A stretch of 64,000 bases of DNA, from positions 4,960,001-5,024,000 of the forward strand of contig NZ_JACCFO010000001.1 of the NCBI RefSeq assembly GCF_013410565.1, in the 5' to 3' direction. The notes beneath the pieces were generated by a model, which did no database searches, was not told the DNA's origin, and saw nothing but the letters and a program-made list of their open reading frames with translations. Each line of letters opens with the position of its first letter. Positions within the stretch are counted from its first letter, which is position 1. This document shows positions 1 to 3,581 of the stretch, piece after piece. The position numbers and the translations under genes are program-made. Source of the DNA: Streptomonospora nanhaiensis (GTDB lineage: Bacteria; Actinomycetota; Actinomycetes; Streptosporangiales; Streptosporangiaceae).

Positions 1-685
1 CGAACACCATCTCGGCGGAGTAGTAGCAGGGCAGCGCGGAGTCGCCCGACCGCGCGGGCATGGTGACGGTGGTCGCGGGGTCGCCCACCCCGACGTGGTG
101 CAGCGTGGTGCGGTGCAGCACCCGGTTGCGCACGCAGTTGTCGAACAGGGTGTGCACCACCTCGGGCACGATCTCGAAGGCGTGCGCGCGCAGCCGCGGG
201 TTGACCGCGGTGCCCGCCAGGGTGAACAGGCCGGTGTAGGCGCCGATGTCCAGCAGCACCGCGCTGCGCCGGGCGGCGGCGGCGAACACCCGCAGCGCCA
301 GGTCGTCGGCGGCGCCCGGGCGCCGGCCCGCGCCCCAGTACAGTTCGGCCGCCACCACGCACGCCGAGGGGCGCAGCATGGTGAACGCGGCGGGTTCGGC
401 GCCGGGCACCAGGCCGGTGACCTCGGCGACCCGGGCGGGCACCGGCAGCCGGCCGGTGCGGCGCAGGCCCGGCGCCGCCACCGCCACCGCGGCCCGCATG
501 GCGAGGTTGGCCGGGCCCCAGCCCAGCAGCCGCTTGACGGGCCTCTTGGCGCCGTACCAGCCGCGCCGGCGCGCCCGGGGCGTGGCACGGAAGTCCACCG
601 CCGCGCCGGCGCCCGCGCGCGCCCCGGTGCGGGGCGGGCCGGCGGGGGAGCGGTGCCGCCCGCCCGTGGTCGACTCCACCGCCAT
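1..685 (-). CDS. FkbM-family SAM-dependent methyltransferase (3' end outside the window)
   Basis: The product is an FkbM-type O-methyltransferase, a Rossmann-fold enzyme using S-adenosylmethionine; FkbM relatives methylate natural products, sugars or lipids. About 228 residues are visible and the C-terminus runs off the window edge. The N-terminal 40 residues are rich in Arg, Gly and Pro. The SAM-binding glycine motif reads LLDIGAYTGLFT near residues 143-154, followed by the acidic-loop region AFEIVPEVVHTLFDNCVRN typical of FkbM domains. The ATG at 685 is preceded by GGAGG with a 6-base spacer. It lies downstream of a Cys-rich peptide gene on the same strand, but a strong hairpin lies between them, so co-transcription is uncertain. 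The substrate cannot be told from sequence. Confidence 0.85.
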   Translation of the reverse strand, partial: MAVESTTGGRHRSPAGPPRTGARAGAGAAVDFRATPRARRRGWYGAKRPVKRLLGWGPANLAMRAAVAVAAPGLRRTGRLPVPARVAEVTGLVPGAEPAAFTMLRPSACVVAAELYWGAGRRPGAADDLALRVFAAAARRSAVLLDIGAYTGLFTLAGTAVNPRLRAHAFEIVPEVVHTLFDNCVRNRVLHRTTLHHVGVGDPATTVTMPARSGDSALPCYYSAEMVF

Positions 686-870: not shown

Positions 871-981
871 TCAGCCGCAGCTGCCCCCGCAGCTGCAGGA
901 GCCGCCGCTCTGGCAGCCGCAGCCGCAGCCGGAACCGCAGTTGCAGCCGGGGACAAGCAGGACGGGTGCGGATTCGGGCAT
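871..981 (-). CDS. Cysteine-rich 36-residue peptide (possible metal-binding or RiPP precursor)
   Basis: This is a small gene of 36 codons plus TGA. The N-terminus is MPESAPVLLVPG. The remaining 24 residues are only Cys, Gly, Ser, Asn and Gln, with eight Cys at 13, 15, 19, 21, 23, 29, 31 and 35 arranged as CNC, CGCGC, CSC and SC. The ATG follows an excellent AGGAGG with a 4-base spacer, and a strong hairpin follows the stop, both supporting a real gene. The short leader followed by a Cys/Ser/Gly core could be a metallothionein-like chelator, or a precursor whose Cys and Ser are modified (azole or lanthionine chemistry). No azoline cyclase or lanthipeptide synthetase is visible here; the next gene encodes an FkbM methyltransferase and the previous genes are cydAB. 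I do not recognise a named family. Confidence 0.75.
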   Translation of the reverse strand: MPESAPVLLVPGCNCGSGCGCGCQSGGSCSCGGSCG

Positions 982-1136
982 GGGGCCTCCTCGGACCGGG
1001 CGCGCCCGCAGGTCGGGGAGCACGCGGGCGCGCGGGTGTGCCATGTGCTCGCTCCAAGGCTCACCTGCCCGCTGGCCGTGATCGCCAACCGAACGGTGAG
1101 GAAGGTGTCACCCCCCCGGCGCCACCCCCCGCACCC

Positions 1137-2189: not shown

Positions 2190-3437
2190 CTAGAAGGCGG
2201 GCGCGTGCGCCGGCGCGGCGGGCGGCTCGGGCGCGGCGGGGGTGAGCGGGCCCCGGTCGGGGCCGCGCACCGCGTAGCGCACCAGCAGCGCGTAGGTGAC
2301 GGTCGCCAGGACCGCGAAGGCCAGCGTGAACAGGGAGAACGAGACCACGGCCATGCCCGGGGTCATGTCGGTCATGGCGTCGGCCGTGGTCAGCAGGTCC
2401 TCCACCACCCACGGCTGGCGGCCGGTCTCGCGCAGCGCCCAGCCGGCGACGCTGGCGATGTAGGGCAGGAACGGCAGGAAGGTCAGCGGCCACAGCAGCC
2501 AGCGCCAGCGGTCCAGGCCGCGCAGCAGCCAGGCCAGCAGCAGCACCGGCGTCAGGAAGAACATCAGCGACCAGAAGCCCATCATGAAGGCGTCGCCAAG
2601 CCCGCCGACCAGCTCCAGTTGGCTGTTGGCCGCATACCGCGCTTCGATGGCCTCGATCTCCTGCGCGGAGTAGGTCGAGCCCGAGGTCGGCGGCACCATG
2701 TCGTAGAGGGCGAACTGCATCCCGCCCACCGCGGCCGTGGGCATCAGCGCCGCCGCGAAGACCACCAGGCCGCGGCGGATGCCCCGGCTGAAGACGCCGT
2801 AGGGGTCGCTGCGCCGCGCCAGGTGGTAGGCGCTCACCGCCATCACCACCGCGCCGCCCAGCAGCAGCGCGCTCAGCGCGATGTGGCCCAGTGCCAGCAG
2901 GGTGGCGGGGTTGGTGAGCATCGCGACGGGGTCGGTCAGCACGGCCGTGCCGTCCTCGACGCGGAAGCCGACCGGGTACTTCAAGAAGCCGTTGGAGACC
3001 AGCACCCAGTAGGCCGACAGGTAGGCGGTGGCGGTGACCACGCCGAAGCACGCCAGGTGCGCCCAGCGGCCCATGCGGTCCCAGCCGAAGATCCACAGGC
3101 CCAGGAAGGTCGACTCCACGAAGAAGGCGCCCATGGTCTCCACGGCCAGCGGCGCGCCGAAGACGTGGCCGAACATGTCGCTCAGCCCGCTCCAGTTCAA
3201 CGCGAGCTGCAGCTCCATCACCAGGCCGGAGAGCACGCCCATGGCGTAGTTGACGACGTAGAGCCCGCCCCAGAACCGGACGCCGCGCATCCGGTCGGCG
3301 TCCCGGCGCAGGGTGGCGCTGAGCTGGCCGAACAGGATGAACGGCGCCAGGCCCAGGGTGAAGGCCACGAAGATGTAGTGGGTGCTCGCCGTCAGCGCGA
3401 ACTGCAGGCGGGCGAGGATCAGGGGATCGTCGAACAT
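2190..3437 (-). CDS. cydA: Cytochrome bd-type quinol oxidase subunit I
   Basis: CydA carries the haem b558/b595/d sites and the quinol site of cytochrome bd. It is 415 residues, clearly shorter than the roughly 520 of E. coli, as expected for forms with a short Q-loop. The axial-ligand His lies at residue 20 in the LTASTHYIFV segment of helix I. The motif GWALRETGRQPW near residues 331-342 is the conserved G-W-x3-E-x-GRQPW signature. About nine transmembrane helices are visible. Only a weak ribosome binding site precedes the ATG. A palindrome of NarL type lies about 130 bp upstream, behind the two-component genes, suggesting control by the neighbouring response regulator. Confidence 0.95.
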   Translation of the reverse strand: MFDDPLILARLQFALTASTHYIFVAFTLGLAPFILFGQLSATLRRDADRMRGVRFWGGLYVVNYAMGVLSGLVMELQLALNWSGLSDMFGHVFGAPLAVETMGAFFVESTFLGLWIFGWDRMGRWAHLACFGVVTATAYLSAYWVLVSNGFLKYPVGFRVEDGTAVLTDPVAMLTNPATLLALGHIALSALLLGGAVVMAVSAYHLARRSDPYGVFSRGIRRGLVVFAAALMPTAAVGGMQFALYDMVPPTSGSTYSAQEIEAIEARYAANSQLELVGGLGDAFMMGFWSLMFFLTPVLLLAWLLRGLDRWRWLLWPLTFLPFLPYIASVAGWALRETGRQPWVVEDLLTTADAMTDMTPGMAVVSFSLFTLAFAVLATVTYALLVRYAVRGPDRGPLTPAAPEPPAAPAHAPAF

Positions 3438-3561: not shown

Positions 3562-3581
3562 CCTACACCGCCCGGTGTAGG
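3562..3581 (-). promoter_or_regulatory. Perfect 8+4+8 palindrome upstream of cydAB (candidate response-regulator box)
   Basis: CCTACACCGCCCGGTGTAGG is a perfect inverted repeat with a 4-base spacer, centred about 134 bp before the cydA start. Read as heptamers it is TACACCG-N2-CGGTGTA, the 7-2-7 geometry used by NarL-type regulators. A near-copy lies upstream of the sensor kinase gene (5619-5638). It could also form an RNA hairpin downstream of the response-regulator gene. Confidence 0.55.

Follow-up and report, generated by a model that had tools for sequence, protein, structure and literature searches.

A short eight-cysteine peptide gene behind cydAB in Streptomonospora nanhaiensis: a probable metallothionein of the MtpA kind with its own promoter-like element

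The window analysed here is a stretch of 64,000 nucleotides from Streptomonospora nanhaiensis, whose genus NCBI taxonomy places in the Nocardiopsidaceae (contig NZ_JACCFO010000001.1, positions 4,960,001 to 5,024,000 of the forward strand). The locus of interest lies at its beginning, where a very short cysteine-rich gene is placed between the genes of a cytochrome bd oxidase and that of a methyltransferase, all on the minus strand. The features are as follows.

1..685, minus strand: FkbM-domain methyltransferase gene (PF05050), outside the peptide unit and running off the window; the protein has 345 aa in locus L013
758..806, minus strand: GC hairpin of very high stability (−46.7 kcal/mol), separating the peptide gene from the FkbM gene
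871..981, minus strand: gene for a 36-aa eight-cysteine peptide, probably a metallothionein of the MtpA kind; ATG at 981-979, TGA stop at 873-871
986..992, minus strand: Shine-Dalgarno sequence GAGGAGG, conserved in all six sequences of the genus
1066..1090, minus strand: promoter-like element GGTTG-N15-GGGCA, ending 84 nt before the start codon
1137..2129, minus strand: cydB, cytochrome bd subunit II (PF02322), a positional neighbour
2190..3437, minus strand: cydA, cytochrome bd subunit I (PF01654, with profile positions of about 234-317 unmatched), a positional neighbour

The gene translates as MPESAPVLLVPGCNCGSGCGCGCQSGGSCSCGGSCG, a peptide of 36 residues with eight cysteines; all eight fall within the final 24 residues, where the rest is solely Gly, Ser, Asn and Gln. 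The arrangement GAGGAGG-N4/5-ATG is found in all six rows of the genus alignment. An alternative in-frame ATG at 1044, which would give a product of 57 aa, can be ruled out as the start, its ATG being without conservation in the same alignment. Among the six genus orthologues, the differences per site-pair in the core are 0.070, 0.093 and 0.174 at codon positions 1, 2 and 3, with 52 synonymous and 45 non-synonymous codon differences, and over the 41 loci described below the corresponding values are 0.138, 0.111 and 0.287. The third codon position is the most variable in both sets, as would be expected of a reading frame that is translated and under selection.

The hairpin downstream consists of 21 pairs with one bulged base, and in L090, the closest relative, a change on one side of a pair is compensated on the other. 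It is missing from a scan for T-run terminators because it has no T-run, and is probably a transcription end of a kind that does without one. The preliminary description of this DNA, made from the letters alone, had proposed an eight-cysteine peptide gene with an excellent ribosome binding site, a last 24 residues made up of cysteines and those four small or polar residues, a strong hairpin after the gene, cydAB ahead of it and an FkbM gene behind it. All of this stands: the coordinates of the gene are right and its strand is minus, the binding site is the conserved GAGGAGG at 992-986, the translation has the composition described, the hairpin is backed by its folding energy and by the paired change in L090, and the neighbours are identified by Pfam.

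Aligned relatives give the consensus CxCGxxCxCGCQxxxxCxCxGxC, with all eight cysteines invariant in 29 of 29 rows. These rows come from 36 short loci read, L002 and L008-L012 having been left out for weak E-values and L029 for a wrongly picked frame, and the methionine that they share is a product of the start codon chosen for each row (GTG written as M). A larger collection of 80 cores (62 of them distinct) has eight cysteines in 68, seven in nine, nine in two and six in one, although it was gathered by a pattern demanding most of the cysteines and is no independent measure of their conservation; histidine occurs in one of these cores, an aromatic residue in two and a charged residue in three. 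In contrast to the core, with a pairwise identity of 0.805, the N-terminus is poorly conserved (0.305) and in relatives is variable and often rich in Pro, Thr and Ser. The hydrophobicity of the ‘short hydrophobic leader’ in the preliminary description is not a conserved property.

Metallothioneins are generally smaller than 10 kDa, with about 20% or more cysteine in CxC or CxxC arrangements and nearly no aromatic residues, and the window peptide, judged by its length, its eight cysteines and the composition of its core, has these features of size, cysteine content and aromatics. It also conforms to the signature CxCGxxCxCGCQ(S/N)xxxCxC, which comes from the present alignment, not from a published model of MtpA. 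No Pfam or NCBIfam model matched the window peptide at E≤10, in a search whose HMMER filters can drop weak matches, and a profile search of PDB chains with the peptide family found none at E≤10.

All six genomes searched within the genus, that of the window included, carry the peptide. In the window's own genome there is one convincing copy, a second match being weak (E 0.52). At the level of the family, 33 of 200 genomes match at E≤0.01, from 15 of 68 sampled genera, where one of the 33 matches is weak and has an inner stop and one of the 15 genera depends entirely on a weak match; the remaining 167 genomes have no match at this threshold, so that the peptide is dispensable in many relatives. 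At the level of the order there are matches in 58 of 297 genomes at E≤2e-9, a count that leaves out ten further weak matches (E 3e-4 to 0.01). Class-level matches number 59 in 394 genomes at E≤0.001, from ten of 137 genera, and are made up of 21 genomes of the window's family, 37 of Streptomyces and one weak match elsewhere, whilst at the level of the phylum 12 of 396 genomes match, from two of 237 genera. Among the matches listed are Streptomonospora alba, Nocardiopsis sinuspersici, Thermobifida fusca, a MAG, two Kitasatospora, many Streptomyces and a record titled Streptosporangium nondiastaticum. Relatives with conserved cysteine spacing near cydAB or FkbM genes, the search for which had been proposed in the preliminary description as a check, were therefore found. 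By its conservation, this is a real actinobacterial peptide.

The Streptomyces relatives carry C.CG..C.CGCQ....C.C, mostly beside phoU. Seven of 20 fetched Streptomyces loci were missed by the regular expression and were re-read separately, and phoU is present in 32 of the 42 Streptomycetaceae-type loci (25 of 35, plus seven of seven re-read). The locus counts for neighbours leave out the duplicates L039=L089, L042=L119, L045=L103 and L049=L113, which are kept among the 80 cores; the duplicates L055 and L150, and the similar L040 and L041, are each counted in the locus totals. In three of the 25 phoU loci the gene converges with that of the peptide, and in L148 it lies 3.3 kb away; phoR is divergent from phoU. 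For the other ten copies phoU is absent from the sequence read; one of these, L041, begins near a contig end. A position beside phoU is that given for mtpA of Streptomyces in PMC11019849, and SCO4227 appears as ‘Metallothionein protein (mtpA)’ in a list in PMC2267785. The window peptide is thus of the same kind as MtpA (SCO4227, S. lividans mtpA) by signature and synteny rather than by alignment to the SCO4227 protein. There are differences: the window member has all eight cysteines whereas some Streptomyces members end earlier, and the mtpA gene lies beside phoU whereas the window gene lies behind cydAB, with cydB and the FkbM gene as its neighbours. No phoU lies directly upstream in the window; this neighbour characterizes the Streptomyces locus and not the protein.

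The published accounts of mtpA regulation are not in agreement. In PMC3282765, mtpA is reported to be upregulated under phosphate limitation independently of PhoP, whereas PMC4991794, citing others, counts SCO4227 amongst PhoRP-regulated genes. The review PMC7866108 speculates that oxidative stress may be sensed or resisted with the help of PhoU and the product of mtpA. Other bacterial metallothioneins named in a review are SmtA, PmtA and MymT (PMC12193353). SmtA/BmtA/PmtA and MymT are, as the window peptide is predicted to be, small metal-sequestering proteins; compared by description rather than by alignment, the window peptide differs from them in having no Pfam or NCBIfam match and almost no histidine or aromatic residues. 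Searches of openly licensed papers found no report of a Nocardiopsidaceae member, of a link to cydAB or of a SigB-type promoter for this kind of peptide. Within these searches, the kind is known from Streptomyces, and what is new is the Nocardiopsidaceae-type branch, its promoter-like element and the copies found beside znuB-zur.

Those copies bear on the identity of the metal. In L051, L052 and L062 a FUR-family gene and a gene for a ZnuB-like ABC-3 permease precede the peptide gene on the same strand, at a distance of 0.5-0.7 kb; the permease match is partial in L052, and a CobW gene converges on the peptide gene in L051 and L062. One copy belongs to S. mashuensis, where a further copy (L054) is linked to phoU; the other two belong to the record titled Streptosporangium nondiastaticum. 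A search of these three loci for palindromes resembling the Zur box turned up nothing convincing before the peptide gene, the best match (12/15) being at −4679 in L051. The znu-zur arrangement would favour zinc as the metal. A metallothionein could instead serve as a copper sink, binding Cu(I) much as the CxC-rich fungal copper thioneins do, and the CxC spacing and near lack of histidine and aromatic residues in the core are in keeping with this. However, the zur neighbourhood of these three relatives points to zinc, and no copper regulator or pump was found among the few neighbours typed by Pfam. This variant, which differs from the preferred reading in the metal alone, seems less likely than zinc.

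In the Nocardiopsidaceae-type loci the peptide gene has its own promoter-like element. Forty-one such loci were read, that of the window included, out of the 58 strong order-level genomes. An initial k-mer screen caught mostly the 3' end of cydB, and the element was found in the last 150 nt before the peptide gene. In 39 of the 41 loci the pattern G(G/A)TTG-N11-18-GGG(A/C/T)A is found 41-105 nt ahead of the start codon as assigned by script, a figure that is partly a fit since the pattern was written after viewing the same sequences. The spacer is 15 nt in 33 of these loci, 16 nt in five and 14 nt in one, its letters varying from locus to locus. Each of the 39 has either C or A as fourth −10 base, hence G(G/A)TTG-N14-16-GGG(C/A)A. 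By chance, 0.385 per 41 would be expected from shuffles and about 0.5 per 41 from random windows of the same loci (25 of 2050), expectations that treat the loci as independent when they share ancestry, though their spacers differ; restricted to spacers of 14-16 nt, the comparison is 39 of 41 against 46 of 4100 random windows. The same blocks with this spacer are found in none of the 29 stretches of 300 nt upstream of cydA and in none of 41 stretches of 250 nt after the peptide gene. Under a rule that needs no start codon, the element is absent from all 33 Streptomycetaceae-type loci with at least 200 nt upstream, while the same rule recovers it in 39 of the 41 family loci; the MtpA-type loci and the window gene thus differ in this respect too. 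A scan for the sigma-70 consensus found nothing.

SigB-type promoters are described in PMC8346170 as GTTTAA-N12-14-GGG(A/T)A(A/T), with near-invariant GGG and position-5 A, and GGGCAT, GGGAAA and GGGCAC are amongst the −10 cases listed there; sites before SigF-dependent genes of M. smegmatis include GGTT-N15-GGGCA and GTTG-N15-GGGTA, as given in PMC4694148. The element resembles these actinobacterial SigB/SigF-type stress promoters in its G-TT block, its spacer of about 15 nt and its GGG-x-A, but differs in having GGTTG or GATTG at −35 and C or A, rather than the T or A of the consensus, as fourth base at −10. In terms of a SigB/SigF regulon, a matching promoter at a similar upstream place is therefore present in 39 of 41 loci, with an imperfect −10. 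The window's own genome has two SigBFG matches above the cut-off, and a factor of the SigB/SigF family would be the one to read the element. The peptide gene looks like a stress-type transcription unit of its own, into which there may also be read-through from cydB.

The place of the gene behind cydAB suggests another reading, in which the peptide is dedicated to respiration, as a small accessory protein or a metal or haem helper of the CydAB oxidase made from one operon. In 29 of the 41 loci, from nine genera, the peptide gene is preceded on its own strand by the cydA-cydB pair. The other 12 loci lack cydA, and in four of these (L118, L120, L121 and L104, the last with a 72-aa fragment) a remnant of the 3' end of cydB remains upstream of the peptide gene, so that the cydA-cydB-peptide order is probably the older one; to go by these remnants, cydAB has decayed in these four loci and the peptide has stayed. 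Yet the peptide is retained in all 12. Each of the 12 genomes has a full-length long-type cydA elsewhere, four of them with a second, short-type cydA as well and eight with the long type only. The promoter-like element, moreover, has no counterpart before cydA, and cydA is nowhere near the peptide in the 35 Streptomycetaceae-type loci scanned. An obligate partnership with cydAB is ruled out by the loci without cydA and by the separate upstream element, and a helper of the oxidase is improbable. The link to respiration in the preliminary description holds for position but not evidently for regulation; cydAB looks like a neighbour rather than an obligate partner. This is a warning against inferring function from a cydAB neighbourhood, since the neighbour comes and goes and the peptide stays.

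Some further features of these loci may be recorded. Downstream of the peptide, 34 of the 41 loci, among them each of the 12 that lack cydA, encode a protein of about 120 aa without a Pfam match. This protein ends in CxxCxxxWPCPT in the two cases examined, and in L097 it lies 229-591 nt past the first core cysteine; it was not seen downstream in the window's locus or in L090, L111, L112, L113, L115 and L117. The window's own genome has three cydA-like genes, at window positions 2190-3437, at C1:4849438-4850784 and at C1:5053511-5054776. Upstream of cydA, at 3562-3581, lies a perfect inverted repeat, CCTACACCG-N2-CGGTGTAGG, which is a possible operator; a similar repeat is present in L123, and half-sites, only partly repeated, in some other loci.

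The other possibility raised in the preliminary description is a RiPP precursor, in which the N-terminus would be a leader and the Cys/Ser/Gly core would undergo modification, perhaps by the FkbM neighbour, and export. It fits the size, the core and the methyltransferase next door in the window genome, but it is rejected as highly improbable on the conservation pattern, which is the opposite of a conserved leader and a variable core, and on the neighbour counts. An FkbM gene lies within 3.7 kb in 15 of the 41 loci and in both orientations, follows the peptide gene on its own strand within 0.9 kb in four, and is near the peptide in none of the 35 Streptomycetaceae-type loci; in the window a strong hairpin separates the two genes.

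No co-conserved modification enzyme was found among the part of the neighbours typed by Pfam. With the conserved core and the variable N-terminus, this makes a metallothionein the most likely identity, and of the two suggestions in the preliminary description, a tiny metallothionein or a RiPP, the first is supported, by the invariant CxC lattice, the MtpA signature and synteny and the znuB-zur neighbours of three relatives. The peptide is thus probably a cytosolic metallothionein of the MtpA kind with a stress-type promoter-like element of its own. It would stay in the cytosol, where its eight thiolates would coordinate a small cluster of d10 metal ions, most likely Zn(II) and next Cu(I). It would buffer or store the metal, and oxidation of its thiols may lead it to release that metal or to quench oxidants. 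A stress sigma factor of the SigB/SigF family would turn on its transcription, which would make the peptide a free-standing ‘metal sponge’ induced by stress. Against the metallothionein or stress reading stand a Streptomyces mtpA promoter that in one strain showed no increase with zinc or manganese (PMC11019849), a decrease of SCO4227 to 0.14-fold in S. coelicolor under oxidative stress (PMC4991794) and the lack of a copy in 167 of the 200 family genomes.

Published bacterial metallothioneins are few, to judge from the review PMC12193353, and a kind that is present in 15 of 68 sampled family genera and in 37 sampled Streptomyces genomes goes unseen by Pfam and NCBIfam in the case of the window copy. 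Given the conserved promoter-like element and the zur-linked copies, both the trigger and the metal of this peptide are open to direct test. Tentatively, one tiny metal sponge may have been wired into at least three control circuits: a stress promoter of the SigB/SigF type next to cytochrome bd in the Nocardiopsidaceae, a phosphate-starvation locus in Streptomyces and a znu-zur zinc locus for some Streptomycetaceae-type copies, in which case zinc would be released on stress or on shortage of phosphate or zinc.
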